NCBI GenBank assembly: GCA_944321635.1
Contig: CALULY010000014.1
Span: 1 to 64,000 of the forward strand
DNA length: 64,000 nucleotides
Reading direction: 5' to 3'
Source: an uncultured Bacteroidaceae bacterium
Lineage (GTDB): Bacteria; Bacteroidota; Bacteroidia; Bacteroidales; Bacteroidaceae
The notes under the pieces are model-generated. The model searched no databases. It was not told where the DNA came from and worked only from the letters and a program-made list of their open reading frames with translations. Shown here piece by piece: positions 23,505 through 53,178 of this stretch (positions within the stretch are counted from its first letter, which is position 1; each line of letters opens with the position of its first letter). Both the position numbers and the translations under genes were made by a program.

Positions 23505-25787
23505 TTATTCCACGAGCACTTTCGTCGCCTGCTCCCCGACCTTGACAACATAGAATCCTGCCGGGACGTCGATTGCCGTCGTGCCGGCATTGACCTCTGT
23601 CAAGAGGACTGTGCGGCCTGTGAGGTCAAAGACCTTGACTGTGGATGCTTGCGGGACGGTCACGTGGATTGCCCCGTCTGATGCCGTAACCTTGGCATCG
23701 GCGGCCGTGACATCTGCAACTCCGCTTCCGCCGCCGAATGTGAGGACATAGCTGTGGCTGGTCTCGCCGTCAACGTCCGCGCCTCCCTGGTTGGTGACGG
23801 TGATGGTGACTGTGCCGGCTGCCGCGTCTGATGCCGTCTCGACTGTGGCGAACTGGCTCATGGCCGCAGGCTCGATGTCGTCGAGGACGGGCAGGGGAGT
23901 GTCGATGGTGTACTCGTATGTCTCGCTGTCAAAGCCGTCGAGCTCCTCCCCGCCGATTGCTATGCCGTCGAGGCGTGAGTGGAAGACGAGGCGCACATCA
24001 TCCGCCTCAAGCACGTTGCCCGCCTTGATGTCCGGGCGCGACCAGTATTCCGCGCTGGAGATGATCACGTTCATCTTGGTCGGGACTTCCTCCATGTTCT
24101 CCTTGACGTACTGGAGCGGGACGACCAGCTCTTGCCATTCCATCTGCTCGCCTGCTATCTCGTGGTCAACTGATGCGATGAGTTTGCCGTCGCCATCTGA
24201 TTCCACCATGCCGAGGACGGCGCGGTCCGCGTCGTTGACCGTTGTCCCGCCAGCGATTGTCGAGGTGAATGTGCCGTTCCAGAGGTATGCGATGACGTGG
24301 GCTTTCTCTGTCTTTTGCGCATCCTCCTCACCGAATGTGCGGCGGTAGGCGAGTGCCAGCGCGTCGGGACGGTAGCCGTAGGCCGTGCCTCCGAAGGTGC
24401 CGCCGTCGCATTTGCTCAAGTCGCTCATGTCAATGTACAACCACGGGTCGCCGTAGGTGAGGTAGGCGGGTGCGTTAGAACCCAAGACGGATATGCCCAC
24501 GAATTTATTGGTCATCACGGCGTAGGCATTGTCGTCATCGCCGCCGCGTGTGACAAGTTCCTCTTGGACTAACCCGAATTGATTTACGCTCGAACCCTGC
24601 CAACCTGTTGGTTCAACGCCCGGACGCAATGCCGGTGAGAGTGCCTTCTCGGCGGAGGTGAAGCTGTAGCCTGCCGTCTCGTCCCAAGACTCAAAGTCCC
24701 CGTTGTAGAGGTCTTGCCCCTCCGTCGTCGTGTTGTAGAGGAGTGTGTAGGTGTGGCTCTGCTTGCCGTCGGTGTCACTCCCGCCCTGGTTGGTGACAAC
24801 GATGGTCACAGTGGCGTTGGCCTCGTCCACATCGACCTCGGTGGTTGCAAACGGGCTGGCCGTGGTCGCCTCTACCTCATCGGCTGTCGGCAGGTCATAG
24901 CTCTGCACCTTGTATGTGTAGGTGTCGCCGTCGAATCCCTCGACCGATGTGCCGCCGACTTTGATGTCGGTGAGCTTGGAGTAGAAGACATAATCAACGT
25001 CATCCACCTCAAGGACATTGCCTGCCTTGATGTTGCCACGCGTCCAATAGTCCGCGCTGGACAGGACAATGTTCATCTTGGTCGGTGTCTCGCCGGCGTT
25101 TGCTTCCACATATTCGAGCGGGATGGTCACATCTTCCCATTCGGAGTATTCGCCGATGATCTCATAATCGACGGATGCTATCAGCTTGCCGTCGCCTGTC
25201 GCTGTGGTCTTGCCGAGGATTGCGCGGTCGGCATCCTGGACTTGTGTGTTGCTAGATATGGTGGAAGTGAATGTGCCGTTCCACAAATAGGCGATGATGT
25301 GCGCCTTTTCCGCCTTTCCGGTATCCTCTTCGCCGAATGTGCGTTTGAACGAAAGGCTCAGGGCGTCGGGCTTGAAACCGTATTCCATGCCCCCGAAAGT
25401 CCCTCCATCGCTGTCCTCGACAGGTAAGGTGGCATACACCCATGGATTGCCTAAGGTGATATAGCCCGGGGCATTGGACCCCATTGACCAGGATCCAATG
25501 GATACTCCTACAAAATCACTGGTGATGACGACGTGTGCGTCGTTGTCATTGCCGCCTTTGCTCACAAGTTCCTTGGTGACATCCATCTGGTTGACGCTCG
25601 AACCGTTCCACCCCTCGGGCTCGATGCCCGGGCGTTGTGCTGTGGTGAGTTGCCCGTTTGACGGGACATAGCTGCTCCCGGCCGCCTCTTTCCACGTTTC
25701 AAAATCGCCGTTGGCTACCTCCTGGGCAGTCACCACGGTCATGCTTGCGGACAATAGCCCGCACAGAGCGTAGATTTTTGTTCTCAT
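23505..25787 (-). CDS. Secreted tandem PCMD-like protein with T9SS-type C-terminal domain
   Basis: The 760-residue protein has a signal peptide (MRTKIYALCGLLSASMTVVTAQ). Two long repeats follow, about residues 23-350 and 355-680. Each starts NGDFE(T/S)W, then has RPG(I/V)EP-GW-GSSVNQ, DGGTFGG-YG-(K/R)PDAL, TFGEED, AYLWNGTFTST and GDGKLIASVD. The first half resembles the carbohydrate-metabolism (PCMD) domain of Bacteroidota. Each repeat ends in a beta-sandwich segment (VTNQGG, HTYTL/HSYVL). The last 75 residues (VKVFDLTGRTVLL, then GFYVVKVGEQATKVLVE) look like a T9SS type A sorting domain, so export to the cell surface or medium is predicted. Ligand unknown. The leader of about 115 bases has a repeated GTTAGTTTAGTT. 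Confidence 0.8.
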   Translation of the reverse strand: MRTKIYALCGLLSASMTVVTAQEVANGDFETWKEAAGSSYVPSNGQLTTAQRPGIEPEGWNGSSVNQMDVTKELVSKGGNDNDAHVVITSDFVGVSIGSWSMGSNAPGYITLGNPWVYATLPVEDSDGGTFGGMEYGFKPDALSLSFKRTFGEEDTGKAEKAHIIAYLWNGTFTSTISSNTQVQDADRAILGKTTATGDGKLIASVDYEIIGEYSEWEDVTIPLEYVEANAGETPTKMNIVLSSADYWTRGNIKAGNVLEVDDVDYVFYSKLTDIKVGGTSVEGFDGDTYTYKVQSYDLPTADEVEATTASPFATTEVDVDEANATVTIVVTNQGGSDTDGKQSHTYTLLYNTTTEGQDLYNGDFESWDETAGYSFTSAEKALSPALRPGVEPTGWQGSSVNQFGLVQEELVTRGGDDDNAYAVMTNKFVGISVLGSNAPAYLTYGDPWLYIDMSDLSKCDGGTFGGTAYGYRPDALALAYRRTFGEEDAQKTEKAHVIAYLWNGTFTSTIAGGTTVNDADRAVLGMVESDGDGKLIASVDHEIAGEQMEWQELVVPLQYVKENMEEVPTKMNVIISSAEYWSRPDIKAGNVLEADDVRLVFHSRLDGIAIGGEELDGFDSETYEYTIDTPLPVLDDIEPAAMSQFATVETASDAAAGTVTITVTNQGGADVDGETSHSYVLTFGGGSGVADVTAADAKVTASDGAIHVTVPQASTVKVFDLTGRTVLLTEVNAGTTAIDVPAGFYVVKVGEQATKVLVE

Positions 25788-39297: not shown

Positions 39298-41283
39298 ATG
39301 TCAAACAACCTGCGCCGCAACATATTCACCGTCATCGCCGCCGTCCTGCTGACTTCGTGCGGGTTTGGCACGCTGCTCAAAAAGGGGGATGAGAGCTTCT
39401 CGCGCGGCGAATACAACGATGCCGCTGGCTACTACCGCCGCGCATACGCCAAAGTCAAGCCCAAAAAACGAGAGATGCGCGGAGAGATCGCCTGGAAGAT
39501 GGCGAACTGCTACCGCTACATCAATTTCGCGTCGCGGGCAAGGGGGGCATACATCAATGCGATACGCTACAAATACCCGGACTCGACCGCATACCTCTAC
39601 CAAGGACAAGTTGAGTTGAAGATGGGACGCTACAACGATGCCCGCAAGAGCTACGACACCTATCTCTCGCTCGATGCGGACAACGGCCTCGCTGCGGTCG
39701 GCCGTGAGTCGTGCGACCTGCTGCCCGAGTGGCGGGAGAACCCGACGCGGTACATAGTGCGCAAGGACAAACTGTTCAACGGGCGGCGTGCCGATTACAG
39801 TCCTGCATACGCCGGTGAGGACGTGGGCACGATCTACTTCACCTCGACACGCAACGAAGCGACCGGGACGGACATCAATCCCATCACTGGCATGAAGAGT
39901 GCAGACATCTTCATGGCAACCGTCGATGAGATGGGGCGGTGGCAAAAGCCCGTGCTTCTGGAGTCGGAGGTCAACAGCGAGTACGAGGACGGTGCTTGCT
40001 GCTTTAGTCCTGACGGCAAGACGATGTACTTCACGCGCTGCATCCTGAAGACCAACGGGCCGGCATTCGCCCAAATCTATTCTTCCCAGCGGACCGGGGC
40101 GAACTGGGGCGCACCCATGGCCTGTGAGCTGACCAAGGACAGCCTGTCGTCCTATGCCCATCCGGCAGTTGACCCCGAGGGACGTTACCTTTATTTCGCT
40201 TCCGATATGCTCGGAGGGTTCGGCGGCACGGACATTTGGCGAGCAGAGATCCTCCCCACGGGCTTTGGCCCTGTCGAGAACCTCGGCGAGGAAATCAACA
40301 CGGAGGGCATGGAGATGTTCCCGACATTCAACACCAAGGGCGAGCTCTACTTCTCTTCCGACGGGCATCCCGGGATGGGTGGCCTCGACATATTCAAGGC
40401 GGTGCAGGACAGCACCGGGCATTGGAGCATAGAAAATCTCAGGTCTCCGGTCAATTCTAACGCCGACGACTTCGGCATGACGTTTGAGTATGGCAAGCAG
40501 AAAGGCTATTTCTCGTCAAACCGCAACGACGCGCGGGGCTGGGATCACTTGTACACGTTTGAGTTGCCAGACTTCGGCTACAAATTCACGGGATGGGTCT
40601 ATGACCGCGATGCCTACGAGTTGCAGGATGCGGAGGTAATCATCGTCGGCAATGACGGGACTAATGAGAAGTACACTACCAAGCGCGACGGCTCGTTCAC
40701 TTGTGATTTGGATGTCAACACCGAGTATGTAATGCTTGCCACTTGCCGTGGCTACCTGAATTACAAGCAGCAGTTGAAAACCGATACGACCAAGGCTGAC
40801 ATACATTATGAGCTCGAGTTCCCGCTTGCCTCGATTACCCGTCCGGTGCGTATAGAGAACATCTTCTATGAGTTTGACAAGGCTACGCTTACCCCAGAAT
40901 CAACAGCGTCGTTGGATGAACTCATCAAGCTGCTCAATGACAACCCCAACGTGACGATAGAACTCAGTTCGCACTGCGACTACAAGGGCCGCGACGCTTA
41001 CAACGAGCGCCTCTCGCAACGTCGCGCGGAGTCTGTCGTCAACTATCTCATCGCGGGTGGCATAGCGTCCGACCGCCTTGAGGCCAAGGGCTATGGCGAG
41101 AGCAGTCCCGTCGTTGTCACCAAGCGTCTGGCCAAGGAGCACTCGTTCCTGCAACAGGACAGCACGCTCACCGAGGCCTATATCCTCAAGTTGGCACCAG
41201 ACCAACAGGAGATCTGCAACGCACTCAACCGTCGCACAGAGTTCAAGGTACTGCGCACGACCTATAACCTCTATGACGAATGA
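39298..41283 (+). CDS. porE: PorE-like T9SS lipoprotein (TPR, propeller, CRD, OmpA)
   Basis: The 661-residue lipoprotein (VIAAVLLTSCGFG, Cys21) has four parts. TPR-like helices lie at about 30-140. A beta-propeller of PD40/WD40 type spans about 155-470, with repeats such as FSPDGKTMYFTR, VDPEGRYLYFAS and FNTKGELYFSSDG. A carboxypeptidase-regulatory-like domain follows at about 480-560. The OmpA C-terminal peptidoglycan-binding domain is at about 575-645, with DYKGRDAYNERLSQRRAESVV. This order matches PorE of the Porphyromonas type IX secretion system, which anchors the T9SS to peptidoglycan. Nearby secreted proteins with sorting domains fit this. It is convergent with the regulator gene that follows. 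Confidence 0.85.
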   Translation: MSNNLRRNIFTVIAAVLLTSCGFGTLLKKGDESFSRGEYNDAAGYYRRAYAKVKPKKREMRGEIAWKMANCYRYINFASRARGAYINAIRYKYPDSTAYLYQGQVELKMGRYNDARKSYDTYLSLDADNGLAAVGRESCDLLPEWRENPTRYIVRKDKLFNGRRADYSPAYAGEDVGTIYFTSTRNEATGTDINPITGMKSADIFMATVDEMGRWQKPVLLESEVNSEYEDGACCFSPDGKTMYFTRCILKTNGPAFAQIYSSQRTGANWGAPMACELTKDSLSSYAHPAVDPEGRYLYFASDMLGGFGGTDIWRAEILPTGFGPVENLGEEINTEGMEMFPTFNTKGELYFSSDGHPGMGGLDIFKAVQDSTGHWSIENLRSPVNSNADDFGMTFEYGKQKGYFSSNRNDARGWDHLYTFELPDFGYKFTGWVYDRDAYELQDAEVIIVGNDGTNEKYTTKRDGSFTCDLDVNTEYVMLATCRGYLNYKQQLKTDTTKADIHYELEFPLASITRPVRIENIFYEFDKATLTPESTASLDELIKLLNDNPNVTIELSSHCDYKGRDAYNERLSQRRAESVVNYLIAGGIASDRLEAKGYGESSPVVVTKRLAKEHSFLQQDSTLTEAYILKLAPDQQEICNALNRRTEFKVLRTTYNLYDE

Positions 41284-41302: not shown

Positions 41303-43054
41303 TCACGGCGTGCCTCCCTCGTGTGCCTCGCAGTTTGACAATGGGAGGTTGACGAGGAAATCGCTGACACTCGCTGCCTCTGGCAGGTTCATCCGCTTTT
41401 TCAGGCGATAGCGTGCCTGGATGACGGCTTTGGATTGCACGAGCAGCATCTGTGCAATCTGCTTGTTGCTCAGTCCGATGCGGATGTAGGCGCACAAACG
41501 CAGTTCGTTGTCGGTCAGACGGGGGTACATTTTCTTAAGCATGGAGAAAAATTGCGGGTGTACGCGCTCGAAGTGCAGCTTGAAAGTGTCCCAGCTCTCG
41601 TCGCCTTTGAGCGATGAAACGATTTCGGACTTTATGTCCCCGATGTCAACATGGAAGTTCTTGTGGATGTTTTCCATCTCCCTCAAAGCCTTTTTCAACG
41701 AGTCGTTTTTCTTCATGAGCAGGATGGCGTTGGCCGATAGTTCGCGGTTTTTGCTCTCGACCAGCTCTTTTTCTTGGCTTAGGCGTGCGATGTGTTCGTG
41801 GTCTTTCTGCATCTGCCGGCGTTGTTCTTCCTGCATCTTACGGCGCAGGACGTATATGATGTATATGGATGCCGTGAGCAGTACCAGCAGCGACAGACCT
41901 ATAATGAGCGAGGTGAGGACCCACGTCTTTTCCTTCTCTTTCTCCAGCAAGGAGGCTACGCGGTATTCTTCGATTTCCTGCTTCATGCCGACTGCACGAA
42001 GGTCTGCCAGCACGTTTTTGCCGCGTGCTTCCTCGTGACTGTCGTAATACAACCGTTGGAAGTGATAGGCACTGTCCCACCTGTGTTGCACCTCGTTGAC
42101 TTTGGCCAGTAGTTTGTAGACGCTCTCATCGACCCTTGCCGAGTTGAGGCCTGTTGCCGCTTGCCGCGCCTCGGCGACGCAGGCGGCTGCACTGTCTGCC
42201 TGTCCCGTGTTGACAAACGACCATCCACGATTGAGCAGCGATGTGATGTAGAGTTGCTTGTCACCTGTCTCCATTGCCAGGCGGTAGGCCGCATCAGAGT
42301 ATTTGATTAGGCTGTCTGGATCTGAGATGTAGGGCAGATAGGCTGTGAAGAACATCACGCGCAGCGGAGGTGACATCTGTTGTTGGTCGTATCTCGCCAT
42401 GCCGTTGAGCAATCTCAGAGCGTCCTTGGACTTGCCTGCCTTCTCGTAGATGTTGACCAGCAGCAATTCTGTGCTGATGTGGTGGTCGTCGAGATGCAAT
42501 GCTTTGAATAACGAGTCGGCATCCATTGCGTTTGACTCTGCATCCCTGCACTCGCCAAGCAGGAGGAAGATGTATGCTATATTATAATAGGTATAGGCGA
42601 GAAGGCGTGAGTCCCCCGCTTTGGAGAATGTTTTTCCTGCTGAAATGTAGAGTCGGTAGGCCTCGGGATAGTCCTCTTGCTTTGAGAGTACCACTGCTTT
42701 CTGCATATCAAGGCGCGCGAGGTCGTATTTGTCTCCGTCTTTTGCTATCCCAATGGCGGTGTCGAGCAATTTGCCTGCCTTGCCGAGTTCCATTGCCGGG
42801 TCAGCACAGACTGTCCAGTAGAGTGTCCTTGCCCTCATCACCTTGTTGCCTGGATTGATGCGTGAGATGGAATCCATCTGTGACACGATGGATGCAATGT
42901 CTACCCCTGACCTGTCACCTTGAGACCACTTTTCTGCCTGGAGTGTCAACCTGTCAAATTCTGGCGACACACCGCGCCACAGACAATCAGTGGAAGCCTG
43001 CACAGCAAAAACGTGCAGGAAAAGCGACATTATAAGCAACTTTATGCGTCCCAT
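41303..43054 (-). CDS. Membrane TPR regulator with LuxR-like HTH
   Basis: The 583-residue protein has an N-terminal signal or anchor. TPR-like helical repeats lie outside the cytoplasm (about 30-370, for example AYTYYNIAYIFLLLGE and SLLNRGWSFVNTGQADSAAA). One transmembrane helix (about 385-407, LIIGLSLLVLLTASIYIIYVL) follows, then a coiled coil rich in Gln/Glu/Lys. The C-terminal helix-turn-helix contains LTDNELRLCAYIRIGLSNKQIAQML. It is a one-component membrane regulator type common in Bacteroidota. It is divergent, 102 bases apart, from the four-gene secreted-protein operon and is the obvious candidate regulator of it. Confidence 0.85.
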   Translation of the reverse strand: MGRIKLLIMSLFLHVFAVQASTDCLWRGVSPEFDRLTLQAEKWSQGDRSGVDIASIVSQMDSISRINPGNKVMRARTLYWTVCADPAMELGKAGKLLDTAIGIAKDGDKYDLARLDMQKAVVLSKQEDYPEAYRLYISAGKTFSKAGDSRLLAYTYYNIAYIFLLLGECRDAESNAMDADSLFKALHLDDHHISTELLLVNIYEKAGKSKDALRLLNGMARYDQQQMSPPLRVMFFTAYLPYISDPDSLIKYSDAAYRLAMETGDKQLYITSLLNRGWSFVNTGQADSAAACVAEARQAATGLNSARVDESVYKLLAKVNEVQHRWDSAYHFQRLYYDSHEEARGKNVLADLRAVGMKQEIEEYRVASLLEKEKEKTWVLTSLIIGLSLLVLLTASIYIIYVLRRKMQEEQRRQMQKDHEHIARLSQEKELVESKNRELSANAILLMKKNDSLKKALREMENIHKNFHVDIGDIKSEIVSSLKGDESWDTFKLHFERVHPQFFSMLKKMYPRLTDNELRLCAYIRIGLSNKQIAQMLLVQSKAVIQARYRLKKRMNLPEAASVSDFLVNLPLSNCEAHEGGTP

Positions 43055-43070
43055 GATGCAAATCTATATA

Positions 43071-43092
43071 TTTGTAGATACTTTGTAGATGC
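43071..43092. promoter_or_regulatory. Candidate operator: two adjacent 11-bp direct repeats
   Basis: TTTGTAGATAC and TTTGTAGATGC (43071-43081 and 43082-43092) are back-to-back, one helical turn apart. An inverted relative GCAAATCTA is at 43058-43066. They lie in the 102-bp divergent region between the TPR/HTH regulator and the cargo operon, so they are a plausible binding site for the HTH protein. Confidence 0.45.
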
Positions 43093-43156
43093 AAACGTTA
43101 TATAAAATAGTTTTTGGCTGCATAAATTGCCGTCAAATTATTAATTGATTACTGCC

Positions 43157-46100
43157 ATGAGAAGATTAGTACAATTGACAACAGGCTTTGCATTCCTATG
43201 TTTATTAGGGAGTGCGAATGCGTATTCACAAAAGCAAGTGCCATACGAGATAGACTTCACTGCTGAAGACTGCTCGGAATGGACGGCATTGGACAACAGT
43301 GCATCGCCCGGGACTACATGGATGTTCAAAGAGAGAGGGATGAGCACTAATGGTGTTTATTATGATTGTGTTGTGCTTGGGACAGATTATAGCGGTTCTC
43401 CAAGCGATGACTATTGGATTTCGCCTGCGCTGTATCTGGAAGCCGGGGTTGACTACACTGTCGAAACCTTGATGAGCTGCGGCTTCACCCAACTTGGCTC
43501 GCAAATCGAGTTGAGCATAGGGACGGCAGTTGATGATGCATCAACATTCTCCAAAGTCGGTGATTTGCCAGTCGAAGAGGGTTACTACAACCTTGACGCT
43601 CCCAACATAGTCAAGGTAAGTGTCGAGCAAAGCGGCATTTATTATTTGGCATACCATGCGACAAGCCCGGCTTATAACTCTGAAACTTGCCTGCTGGATT
43701 TCAAGATAACAGGTGAGGGCGGTGGCGGCACAGACCCCGAAGAGCCTGTGACGGTGAATGCTCCATACAGCATTGACTTCTTGTCAAGCAATGAGGGTTG
43801 GACGCCTGCCGACAACAACAGTGATGGCAACACTTGGACTTATACTGCCGGCTTCGGGGTGACGATGAACACTGCGATAGGTGCGGCGCATAATGACGAT
43901 TACGTTTCTCCAGGGATCAACTTGACAGGGGGCAAGACCTATAAAGTCTCTACCAATGTGGCGGTGATGGCCTATCCTAATGAGATGAACAACGTGCAAT
44001 TGATGCAAGGACTTAATGGCGAAGCACTCACACACCTTGCCACACTCGACCTGCCAACGTTAGGAAACAATTTGGGGACAGCATTTTTTACTCCCGAAGA
44101 GAGTGGTGTTTACCATTTTGCATTCCGCAATCTCTCGGCTGCTGGTGGTACTAACTTGGGATTGTATGCCTTTGCAATCGAGGAAACCACTGCACAACCT
44201 GTCGTGGGAGAGGTTGTGCTTGAGAGCGACTTCTCTGGCAATGAGCCCTTGCAAGGCTGGCTCACAGACGATGCCAACGACGATGACAATTGCTGGGGCG
44301 TGATTGACGGGTTGCCGGGTGTGACCTACAATGGCAACACTGCTATTGGTGCAGCTGATGACTGGCTGATTAGCCCAGTGTTTAATGTTAGCGAGGGGAC
44401 TGATTATATAGTGGAATACACATTCACTCAGGCAGGGGCATTTGATGCCGACGTGATTACTGTCGCTTGTGGTAGCAAGCAAGATGCGTCAGCGATGACA
44501 GATGTCCTCAAAACGGAGACATATAATCTCGGAAGTGGCACCGAGGCGAGGTCGCTGAGGATGACTGCCGACAGGACAGGGACTATGCATATCGGTTTCC
44601 ACATCACGACCAGTGACATGAACGGTACGATGTCGCTCATCGAAGTCAAGGTCACGACTGCGGCAAAAGCTACCCCGATGCCTGTGACAGGGCTGGAAGT
44701 CACCTCGGACTATGCAAACAAGACTGTGACCCTCAGGTGGACGAACCCGTCGCTTGACACCAATCAGACTCCGATCAACGAGGCTTTCAACATAGACATC
44801 CTTGAAAACGGTTCACTCGTCCACACCGTTTCAGGTGCCGAGCCGGGTGAAGAGGAGAACTACGTGCACACTCCGGCCATCCCGTTCACTGGGGACGTGA
44901 CGTATGGAGTGCGAGCAGTGATCGGCAGCAATGCATCACAGACTGTCGAGCAAACCGTCAATCTTGACGATATGCAGGGTGACACTATCCTGGTGAAGCA
45001 ATTCGCGCTTGAGACGCAGGATGATTTTGACGGTTGGGTCATCGAAGACAAGAACGGAGGCAGCACATGGAACTATGAGACATGGAGCAAAACCATCGCA
45101 ATCCCGATGAGCAGCCGCACGAACAATGACTGGGCAATCACACCAGGTGCAGAGCTGGAGACGGGTGTGAGGTATCTGCTTGAATATGATATCAAGACCA
45201 CGATGAACTATGGCGCGGACTTGGATGTGACTATGGGCAATGCCCAGACAGCCCTATCGCAATCCACCGTCATCATGGAGTATGTAAATCTCAAGCAGAA
45301 CGGATTCGGCAGCTACGCATCGCCGCAATTCAGTGTGGAAGAGAGCGGGACATACTATTTCGGTTTCCATGCTGGCAATGTCGAGAATGGATTGTCAATC
45401 AAGAATGTAAGGTTGATGTACATCGGCGAGAACGAAGAATTGGTAGTGATAGCCGAGTTCCCTTACTCGCAAGACTTTGACGAGAACACCGAATTGCCAG
45501 AAGGTTGGCGTGTGGAGAGCGGAAATGAAAACTTCGGATTCCGGGTGGTCGATGTCAAAGATTGGCTTGGGCTGCCGGACTTTGATGCACACAGCACGCC
45601 GAATGCACTGCTTGCGAACTCAGGACTTATGGAGGCACGCGACGAAACAGTGTTCACCCCGATGTTTGATTTGGAAGCCGGCAAGCAGTACTCTGTATCG
45701 TTCTGGTTGCAAATGCCAGCCCAAAACAGCAGGACACAGACGCTGAAGGTCTATGCACTCGATGCTCCTGACAAATCGCTTGCAACGGGCGAGCCTGTCT
45801 TTGAACTCAATAATGCGGACATCCAAGACTGGCAAGAGCAGGAATTCACGTTCTCGGCAACAGGGAGTGAGGATGTGTGCTTCATGATCAGTGTCACTTG
45901 CCCTTTGAGCAACTCCGGACAAGTGGTAATTGACGACTTCGAGGTTGCCGAGTACGTCCCGGAAGTCAATCCCGCCGCACCTGTCAATCTCAGGGGAGGG
46001 GCTACCTGGCCGTCAACCCTGCTCTTGAACTGGAATTATCCGACCGAAGACGTGGAAGGAAACCCACTTGACGAGAATGTCATGGTGACAATCAAGTTCT

Positions 46101-47485
46101 ATGACCAATATGGATACCTCGGAGAACAGACTGGAAAGCCAGGAAGTTTTGGCAACGTGTCTTATGACTACGGATATGGCAACCCGGAATTCGCCGGCCA
46201 ACTCATAATAAAAGGTGAGGCATTCGTCGGAGAACTTGAGGGACACTCATCAAGTTGCGTTGTCACTGTCACGAGCTTGAAGGAAGGCTTGCTGCACGAG
46301 AAAGCTTTTGACTCAAACGATACCGCAGTTGATGATTGGGCAATCGTTGACGGTGATGGCGACAAGGCGACTTGGACAAGCGTAGGTGACACTATCTTCA
46401 CGACGACGGGCAGCGATGAGTGGCTCTTCACTCCGGCAATGCTGTTGGAGGAGGGCAAGAGCTATTATGCATCATGCCAGATAGAGACCGGCCAGGGCCT
46501 GTCTGCCGATGTCGAGTTTGCTCTGGCAAACGAGCCACAAGCAGATGCGGAGCTTGAAAGCCTGATTGAATACGAAGGTTTGGAACTCTCCAACTATTCC
46601 GAGATTGAACTTGGCAGGACATTCACAGCAGGAAGCGGGGATACATATCTGGCCATACACGCTTCATGCCCGGATGGCAAAGTGTCTATAAAGAACTTCA
46701 AAGTCTTCCGCGTCTTTGCCAAGAACGAGCCGGAACCAGTGCCTTACGTGCAAGATTTCGAGGACAGGGAAAACGTGGAGGACATAACAGGCATGACTAA
46801 CAAATGGGGCAGGCTGACATCCTCGTCTGCATTGTTCTCAGTCACGACCATGCCTGAAGGAACAATGGATGCACACTCGGGCGAGTATGCGGCAGTCGCG
46901 GCAGAATTCTCAATGTCAGGTCGCATAGAGACGCTCTACACTCCGTTGTTTGACTTGGAAGAAGGTGGGATCTATGAGATCAACTACTGGTTGTATATGC
47001 CGGGCAATGCCGGAAGGAACACATACGGCAATGTCCTCATCTCACCCACACAGTCGGATGAAGGCGAGCAATTGCCTGTCGTGGCAGTCATGGGCGAGCC
47101 TCTGGGTGAATGGACCAAGATGAATTTCACCTACACGCATGAGATGGAAAACACTCCGTTGTGCTTCTGGTTCTATTTCGTTGCCGAAGAGGCCAATGCC
47201 GGCATTATTGCCATAGATGATTTCAGCATAGAGAAAATTGGGCAAAATGGCATTGCTCAGAGTGGAGCTGATGCGGCGGCAGCATACTATGTCGGCAGCA
47301 CACAGACATTGGTCACTGGAGATGCTTGCGAGGGCGTGGCAATATTTGACGTCCAAGGCCGCATGGTCGCAAGGCAAAACGTGTCAGATGGCACGACAGA
47401 CCTCTCGTGGTTGGAGCAAGGCATCTATGTCATAGTGCTCGATCTTGGCGACAAGGGTACTCAGACCATCAAGATAGTTAAGTGA
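43157..47485 (+). CDS. Large secreted adhesin-like protein, T9SS cargo
   Basis: The 1,442-residue protein has a signal peptide (MRRLVQLTTGFAFLCLLGSANAYS). About seven beta-sandwich modules of cleaved-adhesin type follow. Each opens with an FxxxF/W motif such as YSIDFLSSNEGWTPAD, FSGNEPLQGWLTDD, FPYSQDFDENTELPEGW or VPYVQDFEDRENVED, and each has a later DDYWISP/DWLISPVF-type block. At least two fibronectin type III-like modules lie between (TLRWTNPS, LLLNWNYP). The end (VAIFDVQGRMVAR, GIYVIVLDLGDKGTQTIKIVK) is a T9SS type A sorting domain. Its codon use is less GC-rich than the housekeeping genes around it. It is first of four consecutive cargo genes. The ATG at 43157 precedes the signal peptide. 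Confidence 0.85.
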   Translation: MRRLVQLTTGFAFLCLLGSANAYSQKQVPYEIDFTAEDCSEWTALDNSASPGTTWMFKERGMSTNGVYYDCVVLGTDYSGSPSDDYWISPALYLEAGVDYTVETLMSCGFTQLGSQIELSIGTAVDDASTFSKVGDLPVEEGYYNLDAPNIVKVSVEQSGIYYLAYHATSPAYNSETCLLDFKITGEGGGGTDPEEPVTVNAPYSIDFLSSNEGWTPADNNSDGNTWTYTAGFGVTMNTAIGAAHNDDYVSPGINLTGGKTYKVSTNVAVMAYPNEMNNVQLMQGLNGEALTHLATLDLPTLGNNLGTAFFTPEESGVYHFAFRNLSAAGGTNLGLYAFAIEETTAQPVVGEVVLESDFSGNEPLQGWLTDDANDDDNCWGVIDGLPGVTYNGNTAIGAADDWLISPVFNVSEGTDYIVEYTFTQAGAFDADVITVACGSKQDASAMTDVLKTETYNLGSGTEARSLRMTADRTGTMHIGFHITTSDMNGTMSLIEVKVTTAAKATPMPVTGLEVTSDYANKTVTLRWTNPSLDTNQTPINEAFNIDILENGSLVHTVSGAEPGEEENYVHTPAIPFTGDVTYGVRAVIGSNASQTVEQTVNLDDMQGDTILVKQFALETQDDFDGWVIEDKNGGSTWNYETWSKTIAIPMSSRTNNDWAITPGAELETGVRYLLEYDIKTTMNYGADLDVTMGNAQTALSQSTVIMEYVNLKQNGFGSYASPQFSVEESGTYYFGFHAGNVENGLSIKNVRLMYIGENEELVVIAEFPYSQDFDENTELPEGWRVESGNENFGFRVVDVKDWLGLPDFDAHSTPNALLANSGLMEARDETVFTPMFDLEAGKQYSVSFWLQMPAQNSRTQTLKVYALDAPDKSLATGEPVFELNNADIQDWQEQEFTFSATGSEDVCFMISVTCPLSNSGQVVIDDFEVAEYVPEVNPAAPVNLRGGATWPSTLLLNWNYPTEDVEGNPLDENVMVTIKFYDQYGYLGEQTGKPGSFGNVSYDYGYGNPEFAGQLIIKGEAFVGELEGHSSSCVVTVTSLKEGLLHEKAFDSNDTAVDDWAIVDGDGDKATWTSVGDTIFTTTGSDEWLFTPAMLLEEGKSYYASCQIETGQGLSADVEFALANEPQADAELESLIEYEGLELSNYSEIELGRTFTAGSGDTYLAIHASCPDGKVSIKNFKVFRVFAKNEPEPVPYVQDFEDRENVEDITGMTNKWGRLTSSSALFSVTTMPEGTMDAHSGEYAAVAAEFSMSGRIETLYTPLFDLEEGGIYEINYWLYMPGNAGRNTYGNVLISPTQSDEGEQLPVVAVMGEPLGEWTKMNFTYTHEMENTPLCFWFYFVAEEANAGIIAIDDFSIEKIGQNGIAQSGADAAAAYYVGSTQTLVTGDACEGVAIFDVQGRMVARQNVSDGTTDLSWLEQGIYVIVLDLGDKGTQTIKIVK

Positions 47486-47547
47486 TGACAACAACCGCCT
47501 GCCTCGTGGTTAGCTGCGGGGCGGGCTTTACAAAAAACAATAAGAAG

Positions 47548-49746
47548 ATGAAGACGAAATCATACTATGCAAGCTTTGCTTTCATGCTAAGTTTTGCGGC
47601 ATTGCCTGCTATGTTATCGGCCCAAACATACGAACGTATCGGAATGGAGGGGGTCAAATTGCTCGGCACCGTCACTTATGGCGACGCTGGGGTAGGGGCT
47701 TTTGCCAATGTGGGCCTATTTGAATTCCCGTATGAGTCAAAATACGTCCCAGCCACAAGCGAGACACCATTGATAAGTGGCGATTTTGCCGGCGGCAGCA
47801 CCTACCATGACGGCAAGATCTATTGCAACTCTTTCAACGACGAGACCAACATCCAGGCCGTAAAGCCTGTGTGGAAAATCTATGACGCAGAGACCTACGA
47901 GCTTTTGTATGAACGCGAGTTGAACGACAATTGCGAGAACACGACGAGTACATTGGCCTACGACCCGACTACGGACAAGATTTATGGCTATGTGGTCGAT
48001 TACACCGACACACACTTCGTTGAGATCGACCCCGAAACCGGGGAGATGAAGCGCATAGGGGGCGCGCTCGACCGCAATTATGACTTCCCCTGTTTGGCCT
48101 GCAACAGTGCAGGACAGCTTTATGCCGTTACGCTTTACAGTAATTATGCCACCGGTGAGAGTGATTTGCAGCTTTCCAAGGTCAGGAAGAGCGACGGGCG
48201 TTTCGTCAAGGTCGGGACTATCAGTTGCGACAACCTGATGGGTGAGGATTATCTCGTCTACACAAACTATGACCAAGCGTTGTTCTTTGACAATTCGAGC
48301 GGCGATCTGTTCTGGTTTATGAGCAGTTCAAGTACGGTACTCAACGGCATTTACACCCCGTTGTTCAAACTCAACACGTTGAATGCCCATGCAACCCTTG
48401 TCAGCTACATAGGCCAGGAGCATCACATCAGTGGAGCATACTTCTTGGAACCTGACATGGATGTGCCAGCAGTGATTGAAGACTTCGAGTTCAACGCTGC
48501 AGCGGACGGGGCAAACGAGGGTACATTTGCTGTCACCATGCCATCTGTGACCTATGGCGGCACGTCTTTGGACGGGGCTTCCTTGGGTTTGCGCATCGAG
48601 GATGGGGATGCCGTGTTGCTTGACACCGAGGCAAAGGCCGGGGAAAAGTATGTTTCCGGCAATGTCGAGCTTGCTGATGGCTTCCACACGCTTACTGTCA
48701 CCGTCACCAATGAGGCTGGCAGCAGCCCGGCTGTGAAGAGAGAGGTCTATGTCGGCTATGACACGCCTGTTGCACCGCACAACGTTGTCCTGACGCATGA
48801 TGGCCTGACCACTACATTGACGTGGGAACCGCCGACAGAGGGAGTGAACGGCCGTCCGGTAAACAGTGATAACTTCACTTACACCGTTGTCCGCTATCCT
48901 AATGAGGTGACAGTTGCCGAGGAACTCACCGAGTGCAGTTTCACAGAGACGCACCCTGCCGAGATGACGCGCTACATTTACACCGTCAGGGCGGTCGATG
49001 GAGAGAGAGTGGGTGAGTTCAGCTACTCTAATTCCCTGATACTTGGCGAACCGCTCCGCCCGCCTTATGGTGGAATATTTGGAGGCCCGGAGGATTTCTT
49101 CAATTACTACACCATCATTGATGCCAACAATGACGCGTTTTCGTGGACTTATGACGCAAGCACGGCCAGCGCGGTTTACGTTTACAGCCCTTACTCGCAG
49201 GCGGATGACTGGATCATCGCGCCTCCTATAATCTATGACGCGGCCACGACCTACGAACTGACGTTCAAAGCCTACTCGTCTCTTGTCGGTTATCCCGAGG
49301 CGATGGAAGTCAGATTTGGCAGGGAAAGGACACCTGAAGCGATGACCCATCAACTTTTGGACATTCCCGAAGTCCCGACAGTCGATGAGGACAATCCTGT
49401 GCAAGAATACAAGACCGAGTTCATGACAGACGAAGAAGGCATTTATTACTATGGTTTGCACGCCGTGTCCCCTAAATTCTGCGAATATCTCTATGTCTTT
49501 GACATAAAGGTCTATGAGAAGGGAACGGATGGTGTGGATGCTTTGACCCAGACACCAGATGTCATTGTCGTGGCATCCGACGGCCGTTTGTGTGTGGGCA
49601 ATCCCCAGTGCCTTGACGTGCAAGTCTATGACGCACGGGGCATTATGGTCCACCGCTCATCGTCAGGCAATCTGGATTTGGGTCTTGACAGAGGCCTTTA
49701 CATGGTAAGGGCAAACGGCAAGGTCTATAAAGCCATGGTTCGTTGA
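47548..49746 (+). CDS. Secreted propeller/FN3/adhesin-module protein, T9SS cargo
   Basis: The 732-residue protein starts with a signal peptide (MKTKSYYASFAFMLSFAALPAMLSAQ). A propeller-like beta region lies at about 30-320 (GSTYHDGKIYCNSFND, TLAYDPTTDKIYGYVVD). An FN3 module (PVAPHNVVLTHDGLTTTLTWEPP) follows. A cleaved-adhesin-like module (YYTIIDANNDAFSWTYD, ADDWIIAPPI) precedes a T9SS C-terminal domain (VQVYDARGIMVHRS, GLYMVRANGKVYKAMVR). The ATG at 47548 begins the signal peptide; the frame is open further upstream without coding character. It lies 62 bp after the adhesin gene and 20 bp before the subtilase. Function unknown. Confidence 0.8.
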   Translation: MKTKSYYASFAFMLSFAALPAMLSAQTYERIGMEGVKLLGTVTYGDAGVGAFANVGLFEFPYESKYVPATSETPLISGDFAGGSTYHDGKIYCNSFNDETNIQAVKPVWKIYDAETYELLYERELNDNCENTTSTLAYDPTTDKIYGYVVDYTDTHFVEIDPETGEMKRIGGALDRNYDFPCLACNSAGQLYAVTLYSNYATGESDLQLSKVRKSDGRFVKVGTISCDNLMGEDYLVYTNYDQALFFDNSSGDLFWFMSSSSTVLNGIYTPLFKLNTLNAHATLVSYIGQEHHISGAYFLEPDMDVPAVIEDFEFNAAADGANEGTFAVTMPSVTYGGTSLDGASLGLRIEDGDAVLLDTEAKAGEKYVSGNVELADGFHTLTVTVTNEAGSSPAVKREVYVGYDTPVAPHNVVLTHDGLTTTLTWEPPTEGVNGRPVNSDNFTYTVVRYPNEVTVAEELTECSFTETHPAEMTRYIYTVRAVDGERVGEFSYSNSLILGEPLRPPYGGIFGGPEDFFNYYTIIDANNDAFSWTYDASTASAVYVYSPYSQADDWIIAPPIIYDAATTYELTFKAYSSLVGYPEAMEVRFGRERTPEAMTHQLLDIPEVPTVDEDNPVQEYKTEFMTDEEGIYYYGLHAVSPKFCEYLYVFDIKVYEKGTDGVDALTQTPDVIVVASDGRLCVGNPQCLDVQVYDARGIMVHRSSSGNLDLGLDRGLYMVRANGKVYKAMVR

Positions 49747-49766
49747 ACATCGTTGTTAAAATAGAT

Positions 49767-51959
49767 ATGGAAATGAAGAAATTGCCATTATTACTGCTGT
49801 TGACAGCCTTTGCCCTCACCCCAGCGTGGGGGCAAAGCAAGATGTCTCCTCTGTTGAGGCAGACATTGCGTAAAGCAGAAGCCAACTCGTGTTGCCAGGA
49901 CACGGTCTTTCCTGTGGTGAAAAAAGTGAAAGAGGGAAAAACATATATCTCTGCTTTCATCAAATTCAATGACGATTCAGCCATAGACAGCCTCACGGCT
50001 CTTGGGGCGGTAGTCAGGACACGCACAGCCTCGTTTGCTACGGTTTATTTGCCTATTGACAAGGCAGAAGAAATATCGGAGTTGCCAAACGTGGACTATG
50101 TTGAGATGGGCTCGCCGGTGAATGTTCGGATGGATGAAGCCAAAAAAGCCACCAATGCAGACGACGTTCTCAGCGGCAACGGGCTGCCACAGGCCTTTGA
50201 TGCCGACGGGGTAGTTGTGGGGGTGATAGACAATGGGTTTGAATTCGGGCATCCAGACTTCTATGACAAGGCGAAAACCGAGCTGCGCATCAGACGTGTC
50301 TGGAATCAGAACCTTGAGGGCAACTCTCCTGAGGGGTTTGGTTACGGCACTGAGTACACCACAGCCGATGAAATCCTTGCAACCGAGATAGATGACACTT
50401 CGACCGGCCATGGCACTCATGTGACCGGCATCATCGCCGGGGCGGATGATACGGACGGACATGACTATGCCGGACTGGCTCAAGGAGCGGACATCGTGCT
50501 TGTGGGGATGAGCGAAGGCAATATGTTGTACGGTGACAACACGACAGTGCTTGATGGCATCAAGTACATCTATGATTATGCCGATGAGCAAGGCAAGCCC
50601 TGTGTTGTCAACATGAGCCTTGGCTCGTTCCTGGGGCCGCGTGACGGCACATCAGCCTTTGACCAGATGTGTGACGAACTCCAAGGCCCAGGTCGTCTGT
50701 TGGTCGGCTCTCTCGGCAATGATGGCGGTACGACTTGTCACACCTCCATTACGTTTGATGGTGAGGACAGTGACACGCTCAAGACATTGTTCAAATTCGC
50801 ATACACCTATATGCCTGCTTCTTACACCGAGATTTGGGGCCGCGAAGGTATGGACATAACCTTTATCCCCGTGTCAGTAGACATGGCGACAGGCAAGATA
50901 GATGAATGTCTCGATCCGTTTACTATCTCTCCGGGTGGTACGGGCGGCGAGGCTGAATACTCGTTTGAGGGCATCGAAGGGGCATTGGCAGTAGCGTCGG
51001 AAATAAATCCGTTGAACAACAAGCCACATATCACCCTTTTTGCATCGTTCTATTACAGCAGCGACCGCTATCTCGGTTTCATGGTGACATCGACAAAGCC
51101 GGGGACAGTCCATGTGTGGGCGGACAATGTTTACAGCTCCTTTGATAATTATGGCGTAGAAGGTTTCACAGCCGGGGATGACACCTACACTCCAGGCGAG
51201 ATCGGCGGCACAGGCAAGCGCATAATCTCTGTTGGCGGCTATGTCACCCGTGACCACTATGAGGAATATGGCATTTACCACCCGTCAGGTGAGGAGCTTG
51301 GAGCTTTGGCCTCGTTCACCAGCAAAGGCCCCACCGCCGATGGCCGGTTGAAGCCAGAGGTGTGTGCCCCGTCATCCTACATCGTGTCGTCCATATCACG
51401 ATACTCCACGACCACACCAAGGGCACAAAAAGTGACTTGGGACGGTCAATCCTACTACTACGGTTTCATGCAAGGCACGTCAATGGCTGCCCCGTTTGTG
51501 ACTGGGGCGATGGCTTTGTGGTTGCAGGCTTGCCCTGAACTCACGCCAGAGAAAGCCAAAGAAGTCTTGCAATCAACCTCCATCAACGACAGCTTCACCG
51601 GCGACGTGAGGGAAAACGGAGATTATGCCTGGGGATATGGCAAGATAGACGTGCTCGGCGGCATAAAGGAGTGCATCAAGTCGTCTGGCATAGAGGAAAC
51701 CGGGACGTTGTTGGAATCACCATTCATAGTCCTTGGCGATGGCAATGCGGTCTCGGTGATGTTTACCCGTGACTTGGAAGATGCGACATTGGCCGTTGTC
51801 TCAATCGACGGGCGGACAATCTCGTCAGATGCACATCGCAGCTATGCCGCAGGTGAAGAGTTGCGGCTCGATGCAGGCAACTATGCTCCCGGGGTTTACC
51901 TCGTCAACCTCGTTTCGTCAGATGGTGTACGCCACACTGAGAAGATAATCATTGACTAA
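49767..51959 (+). CDS. Subtilisin-like serine protease (S8), T9SS cargo
   Basis: The 730-residue protein has a signal peptide (MKKLPLLLLLTAFALTPAWGQ), an N-terminal prodomain-like region and an S8 catalytic domain. Asp155 is in VVVGVIDNGFEFGHPDF, His215 in STGHGTHVTGIIAG and Ser572 in MQGTSMAAPFVTGAMAL. The 357-residue gap between His and Ser is longer than in subtilisin and must contain an inserted domain. The end (LAVVSIDGRTISSD, GVYLVNLVSSDGVRHTEKIIID) fits a T9SS sorting domain. ATG 49767 and ATG 49773 are equally good. It may process the neighbouring secreted proteins or degrade external protein; the target is not known. Confidence 0.88.
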   Translation: MEMKKLPLLLLLTAFALTPAWGQSKMSPLLRQTLRKAEANSCCQDTVFPVVKKVKEGKTYISAFIKFNDDSAIDSLTALGAVVRTRTASFATVYLPIDKAEEISELPNVDYVEMGSPVNVRMDEAKKATNADDVLSGNGLPQAFDADGVVVGVIDNGFEFGHPDFYDKAKTELRIRRVWNQNLEGNSPEGFGYGTEYTTADEILATEIDDTSTGHGTHVTGIIAGADDTDGHDYAGLAQGADIVLVGMSEGNMLYGDNTTVLDGIKYIYDYADEQGKPCVVNMSLGSFLGPRDGTSAFDQMCDELQGPGRLLVGSLGNDGGTTCHTSITFDGEDSDTLKTLFKFAYTYMPASYTEIWGREGMDITFIPVSVDMATGKIDECLDPFTISPGGTGGEAEYSFEGIEGALAVASEINPLNNKPHITLFASFYYSSDRYLGFMVTSTKPGTVHVWADNVYSSFDNYGVEGFTAGDDTYTPGEIGGTGKRIISVGGYVTRDHYEEYGIYHPSGEELGALASFTSKGPTADGRLKPEVCAPSSYIVSSISRYSTTTPRAQKVTWDGQSYYYGFMQGTSMAAPFVTGAMALWLQACPELTPEKAKEVLQSTSINDSFTGDVRENGDYAWGYGKIDVLGGIKECIKSSGIEETGTLLESPFIVLGDGNAVSVMFTRDLEDATLAVVSIDGRTISSDAHRSYAAGEELRLDAGNYAPGVYLVNLVSSDGVRHTEKIIID

Positions 51960-51975
51960 CAACAGACAAAACTAT

Positions 51976-53115
51976 ATGAAACAACTACTCACACTCGCGG
52001 CATCATTGGCCGCTACGGCCATGGCATTCGCCCAAGATGCAGCGACAATCCCGACAAGGGACGAGATGGTGGGCGATTTCATCATCCTCAATACGAAAAT
52101 CTATGAAGAAGTGCCGAGCATATCGGATATGCGTCCGTTGACAATCACCGACGAAGGCGGCTCGCTAAGCATAGCCAACATCTTTTGGCCAGGTTGCTTT
52201 GATGTCCCAGCCGACTATGATGAGACTACCGGCGAATTGTCAATCGAGTCTGGCGTGATGTTATACCACGTCGAGAACATCGTCATCTACCTTTACCAGT
52301 GGAACGACGCTCAAGAGGAGGTCAACCCGCGTCCCATCACTTACAAATATGCAGGCAATGGCGAATGGCGCACTGACGCCACCATCATGCTCATGTCAGG
52401 TTATGAAGATGGCGAACTGTCACCCAGCTACTTTGCCCAAGGGTCGCAGATTGTCAGGGCTAATGCAACGACGACCAATGTCTCTTATGCAGCCAGCGGT
52501 CTCACACGTTACGACGAGTCGCGTCCGAGTCTCGTGCGGATAGAAGACCCCGTGATCACCATTTACAACTTCCTCCAAGCCGACCAGTACGGTTATGGTT
52601 GTATGGCACAGGGCGTGATTGACAACACCCGTTCAAATGCCATCTTCGTGACATCTGTCGTGGGGCAGACCAATGACGGGACTTACCGCATTTTGGCAGG
52701 ATGTGAACTCAATGATGACGGGAATTTCCCAACAGGCATCAGTCATCCTGGTGAAAAATATGAGAGCTACACCTACGCAGCAGTTGACCTTGAGAACGGC
52801 ACGATAGACTTTGAACCTATGGCCATCTGGGGCAGCACCTACGATGCAACGACGGGAGCGGTCGAGATCAATACCAATTCTGTCTTTGAAACCGTTGCAA
52901 TGGCAAGTGTCACATACGATCCGAGCAAGACGGACGCACCATCCGCGATCAAGACCGTTGTCGATGATGAGGCTTGCACCGAGGCTGTGCGCACTGATTA
53001 CTACCGCATCGATGGCACGATGGTCGTGCAGCCCAGGGATGGGGAACTCGTCATCAAACGCACATTGTACAAGGACGGCAATGCCAAGACTGAGAAGATG
53101 ATTTGGCGCGACTGA
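51976..53115 (+). CDS. Small secreted protein, probable T9SS cargo
   Basis: The 379-residue protein has a signal peptide (MKQLLTLAASLAATAMAFAQ) and then a beta-rich body of no family I recognise. Tyr/Thr-rich strands such as VENIVIYLYQWNDAQEEV and GTYRILAGCELNDDGNFPTG are typical. The C-terminus (YYRIDGTMVVQPRDGELVIKR with a final KMIWRD) looks like a shortened sorting domain. It starts 16 bp after the subtilase and is the last gene of the four-gene unit, followed by a terminator. Confidence 0.72.
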   Translation: MKQLLTLAASLAATAMAFAQDAATIPTRDEMVGDFIILNTKIYEEVPSISDMRPLTITDEGGSLSIANIFWPGCFDVPADYDETTGELSIESGVMLYHVENIVIYLYQWNDAQEEVNPRPITYKYAGNGEWRTDATIMLMSGYEDGELSPSYFAQGSQIVRANATTTNVSYAASGLTRYDESRPSLVRIEDPVITIYNFLQADQYGYGCMAQGVIDNTRSNAIFVTSVVGQTNDGTYRILAGCELNDDGNFPTGISHPGEKYESYTYAAVDLENGTIDFEPMAIWGSTYDATTGAVEINTNSVFETVAMASVTYDPSKTDAPSAIKTVVDDEACTEAVRTDYYRIDGTMVVQPRDGELVIKRTLYKDGNAKTEKMIWRD

Positions 53116-53138
53116 TTGTTGCCTACTGCGCTATCCTG

Positions 53139-53178
53139 TTTGGGCGGGGCACAGATGTGCTTCGCCCAAATTTCTTTT
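53139..53178 (+). terminator. Terminator of the secreted-protein operon
   Basis: The stem TTTGGGCG (53139-53146) pairs with CGCCCAAA (53163-53170), with further inner pairs, followed by TTTCTTTTG. The 190 bases between here and asnS hold no gene. Confidence 0.75.

Follow-up and report, generated by a model that had tools for sequence, protein, structure and literature searches.

The window, the whole 64,000-nt stretch of DNA analysed here, carries four consecutive genes for putative surface proteins with a regulator gene pointing away from them, and the question it raises is whether that regulator governs its neighbours. ORF listing, gene-end reading and family scans confirmed the ORFs and strands of the initial annotation: cargo genes 1 (43157..47485), 2 (47548..49746) and 3 (49767..51959) and gene 4 (51976..53115) on the plus strand, the regulator (41303..43054) on the minus strand, and porE (39298..41283) on the plus strand beyond it. 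With ATG starts at 43157, 47548, 49767 and 51976, the gaps within the four-gene operon were exactly the 62, 20 and 16 bp annotated, and a strong, terminator-like hairpin of 15 pairs (53138..53171, plus strand) 3′ of gene 4 closed the operon. Our reading, judged from sequence features and their conservation, is that a dedicated one-component transmembrane activator probably controls a self-contained surface-protein (T9SS cargo) operon. We disregarded a sigma70-type promoter scan, since promoters of this phylum are of a different type.

Cargo status was predicted from signal peptides and C-terminal domains (CTDs). The signal peptides were confirmed in all four co-oriented genes. The annotated T9SS CTDs fared less evenly: gene 1 passed TIGR04183 (T9SS type A; 26.8 bits, cut-off 23), gene 3 was borderline (19.8 bits in one scan and 24.3 in another, same cut-off), the tail of gene 2 matched only the CTD profile built in this analysis, which gives it fair support, and in gene 4 no CTD was recognised (5.4 bits in profile scoring) and no known family was matched in Pfam/NCBIfam scans. 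Export of the four-gene set via the T9SS is predicted, and its designation as a T9SS cargo operon is partly supported. The genome encoded T9SS machinery, SprA/Sov (2936 bits) and PorE, and a TIGR04183 search of it returned 43 places at E ≤ 0.1, 27 of them above the cut-off. One additional T9SS CTD protein was encoded at window positions 23505-25787, outside the four-gene operon. At another locus, L049, two neighbouring T9SS genes shared an identical C-terminal stretch (G000 C12:12763-12951 and C12:14783-14971), which suggests recent duplication.

The domain content of the cargo largely agreed with the initial annotation. Adhesin-like gene 1 contained five choice-of-anchor-J stretches within its choice-of-anchor-J/Cleaved-Adhesin-like repeats. 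Gene 2 had an N-terminal beta-rich region followed by Ig-like, FN3 and choice-of-anchor-J domains and a CTD-like end, and its predicted structure (pLDDT 47) was too poor to judge the proposed propeller fold. Gene 3 encoded an S8 subtilase-like peptidase with a recognisable subtilase domain and, by inspection, the D, H and S motifs. The proposal that protease and adhesin form the core of the module did not hold across the family, as few protease-like members occurred among the cargo of related regulators; the cargo adjoining these was mostly choice-of-anchor-J, Cleaved_Adhesin or Omp28-like.

The regulator, characterised from its ORF, domain scans and an AlphaFold model with topology taken from sequence, possessed the annotated signal peptide, TPRs, single transmembrane segment (TM) and C-terminal HTH. 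The TPR domain, predicted to be periplasmic, spanned residues ~31-322, the TM ~379-403 and the GerE/LuxR-like HTH ~472-568, with a long helix between TM and HTH. The GerE Pfam score was 19.2 bits for the window regulator (cut-off 23.5), and GerE was matched in 34/43 relatives at E ≤ 0.01. The AlphaFold model, made with the 43 relatives, had a mean pLDDT of 86.5 and consisted of a TPR solenoid, a continuous helix carrying the TM and a helical C-terminal domain. The solved folds closest to the TPR domain were TPR proteins, LGN first and then Rap and NprR. No histidine kinase or receiver domain was among the regulator's Pfam/NCBIfam matches, which sets it apart from hybrid two-component systems. 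It belonged neither to the BT3442 family (NF053779; 21.2 bits, cut-off 940) nor to DUF6377 (PF19904; 17.7 bits, cut-off 36.7), both of which gave weak matches over its TM-HTH part, with scores well short of the curated cut-offs. The TPR protein BT_3442 is encoded in a putative operon together with the MACPF protein (PMC2954219). A profile of the regulator architecture found no second full-length match in its own genome.

Nearest orthologs separated the regulator-cargo pair from porE. The regulator was 88-89% identical in genome G003, which kept the gene order of regulator and all four operon genes, gene 4 included, and 58-59% identical in G001, which kept the regulator and three operon genes before its contig ended. 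The relatives belonged to Candidatus Avibacteroides, to Barnesiella and to further Bacteroidales, and many of them were MAGs. The PorE-like gene call was sound (NF052230; 987 bits, cut-off 600), but its membership of the module was rejected: porE is tail-to-tail with the regulator, was kept in G003 only and is missing beside the 58% identical G001 ortholog, and is therefore an incidental neighbour.

To place this pairing in the order Bacteroidales, we found regulators by profile, fetched their surroundings, called genes mechanically and scored CTDs with a profile trained on the TIGR04183 hits of the window's own genome and then iterated. Most genomes behind the linkage and operator evidence were MAGs. 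An order-wide sample of 66 regulators was independent and played no part in forming the operator rule described below. For 30/66 of these regulators, a CTD gene lay divergently or immediately downstream, compared with a background of 6/154 (4%) at the same loci, and ~45% of regulators in the sample were without a CTD neighbour. NCBIfam recognised TIGR04183 in 44 of 49 neighbouring cargo proteins, a preselected set. A quick FastTree phylogeny, with local support only and long branches flagged, placed the window regulator inside a branch of 22, 19 of them cargo-divergent. On these sequence comparisons, the regulator-cargo link is real and not incidental neighbourhood. Two other arrangements were seen in the survey: a conserved CTD gene pair (~630 and ~1550 aa) directly downstream of the regulator (L123, L125, L131, L133, L143, L151), and tandem regulators (~580 + ~537 aa) preceded by a ~273 aa gene (L162, L164, L222, L239, L251).

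The intergenic region held a candidate operator, a 21-bp, 11-bp-period direct repeat (ATTTGTAGATACTTTGTAGAT, 43070..43090, plus strand) kept in the 58% ortholog. A block of ~35 bp around it was near identical in G001, and much of the remaining intergenic region had diverged. Of 29 cargo-divergent loci, 19 had an analogous repeat at the equivalent position and 10 showed none under the pattern used. Period 11 was exceptional upstream of cargo-divergent regulators, with a mean best score of 8.42 of 10 versus 6.2-6.9 for other periods (6-22); this upstream excess was not found at cargo-downstream loci. Since visual inspection of the discovery and GTDB loci had first suggested the repeat rule, the order-wide set served as the clean test: the repeat was present at 5/10 divergent versus 2/56 other regulators (p = 5e-4). 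The corresponding figures were 11/14 and 3/53 for the loci from which the rule had largely come. Recognition-helix residues varied with the half-site, IQ/II/IV occurring with T[CA]TACA, NT with TAGACA/TGTACA, and KK/RK/KQ with GGGACA or TGGACA. Similar helices went with similar operators even after TPR similarity was accounted for (partial Mantel r = 0.31, p = 0.0004, n = 18), a control that removes shared ancestry only partly. Further repeats were seen near related regulators. Upstream of 8984 in L067 there were 12-bp-period repeats with GGGG[GT]ACAA on both strands, and 8/13 Chitinophaga-type loci (L161, L163, L165-L168, L170, L171) had an 11-bp, TGTAGAGGT-like repeat immediately past the regulator stop, ahead of a SusC-like gene.

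The repeat also stood at a fixed distance from a promoter element. The best box resembling the published -7 consensus TAnnTTTG (PMC7366714) on the cargo strand started 53-55 nt from the operator start in 18/19 repeat-bearing divergent loci, and shuffling of the downstream region reached the observed column mean of the box in 0/2000 trials. The order-wide loci fitted this spacing in 4/5 cases. In the window, the predicted cargo -7 element (TAAATTGC, 43123..43130, plus strand) lay 53 nt from the operator start and was weak, agreeing at 4/6 TAnnTTTG positions, and for this reason a strict composite scan missed it. On the other strand, the predicted regulator -7 box (TAGATTTG, 43059..43066) was 4 nt before the regulator ATG. 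In 13/19 listed loci, 4 nt separated the end of a full TAnnTTTG from the start codon of the regulator, and in one more locus 5 nt did so, which predicts leaderless regulator mRNAs; in B. thetaiotaomicron, 5′ UTRs <10 nt make up ~3.7% (PMC7366714). The composite element of repeat and box was found ≤400 bp from 33/137 regulators, non-divergent loci included, versus 0-5/137 for ten control geometries, and some non-divergent or cargo-downstream loci carried it before the cargo gene. The composite pattern matched the window's genome once, at the regulator-cargo intergenic region. A looser pattern, TANNNTTG, applied to ten genomes, was dropped as main evidence: it missed the window's own site, and although 4/5 of its hits in G057 adjoined family regulators, in other genomes most did not.

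Together these features suggest a new element of the locus, a predicted switch site at fixed promoter distance that would give each such operon a private on-switch. The signal peptide and TM imply that the TPR domain faces the periplasm, with the one TM crossing the inner membrane and the HTH in the cytoplasm. Conservation and helix/half-site covariation point to the direct repeat at 43070-43090 as the HTH's binding site. Cargo transcription is predicted to start near 43135, a few nt downstream of the -7 box, and the mRNA would run from there to the terminator at 53138-53171. The operator's midpoint would then fall near -55 at the cargo promoter, where activators typically bind, and it is from this position that activation, rather than repression, of the cargo is read. 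Autorepression of the regulator is expected, as the predicted operator also covers the -33 region of the promoter that drives the regulator gene. Our leading guess for the signal is a periplasmic peptide or protein ligand, given that peptide-binding TPR proteins are its nearest matches among solved folds.

The same dedicated regulator and operator could instead keep the cargo repressed until the signal arrives. We consider this unlikely: an operator between divergent promoters is compatible with either sign and one half-site is close to the cargo -33 region, but the distance from the end of the site to the -7 box is ~32 nt and constant in 18/19 loci, the site lies upstream of the -33 region, and the -33 matches were poor by eye, as expected of an activator-dependent promoter. 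Far less probable is that global T9SS control of the PorXY-SigP type chiefly governs the cargo operon, with the adjacent regulator acting elsewhere. In P. gingivalis, PorXY-SigP does control the genes for T9SS components (PMC7712824); however, linkage of regulator and cargo recurs across genera, and the location of the genome's only composite site, beside the operon, argues against this account as well as against a regulator of a distant locus only, the refuting case named in the initial annotation.

That the neighbours are unrelated and the repeat is AT-rich noise is barely credible. Related TPR-HTH regulators at other loci do adjoin SusCD-like or unrelated genes, but the period-11 excess, linkage, fixed spacing and control geometries all speak against chance, which the geometry statistics already disfavoured, as does the ~35 bp repeat block preserved in G001 amid diverged intergenic sequence. 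Activation by a dedicated regulator remains our preferred reading. The annotated picture of a self-contained operon with its own divergent regulator survives in its linkage, conserved repeat and single site, and gives way on porE and on the protease-adhesin core.

PUL regulators of Bacteroidota, such as SusR and the hybrid two-component systems (HTCS), are membrane-spanning sensor-regulators encoded beside the surface operon they control. The regulator described here is likewise encoded next to its predicted target surface operon, and in its Chitinophaga relatives an 11-bp repeat lies between the regulator and a neighbouring SusC-like gene. Unlike SusR/HTCS, it has a TPR sensor, shows no kinase or receiver among its Pfam/NCBIfam matches, and has T9SS cargo as its predicted target. 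The PorXY-SigP pathway and PorA of P. gingivalis likewise concern how transcription is regulated around the T9SS; PorA, a CTD protein, is itself a surface cargo and acts on the signal (PMC7712824). Whereas PorXY-SigP controls secretion machinery genes, the predicted target here is one cargo operon. The TPR domain resembles those of RRNPP sensors (Rap, NprR) by profile and fold, although eukaryotic LGN outscores both and the resemblance may be generic TPR similarity. RRNPP sensors are cytoplasmic and bind a re-imported peptide, whereas this TPR domain is predicted to lie in the periplasm, with a TM linking it to the HTH; the predicted location argues against RRNPP membership. We found no description of such a regulator class in the literature searched, largely that outside subscription journals.

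T9SS cargo genes are scattered, and their known control mainly concerns the machinery. A wider reading, which we offer tentatively and ourselves doubt, is a Bacteroidota class of private T9SS-cargo regulators, each recognising its own operator variant by way of its recognition helix and using its periplasmic TPR domain to monitor the export status of its cargo or a peptide derived from that cargo. If this were true, transcription of cargo would follow its secretion, and the class would stand parallel to the PUL regulators. The rule of repeat, 53-nt spacing and helix code predicts the cargo operon that each regulator serves across many uncultured Bacteroidales, and may also offer a route to co-expressed surface proteins without expression data.
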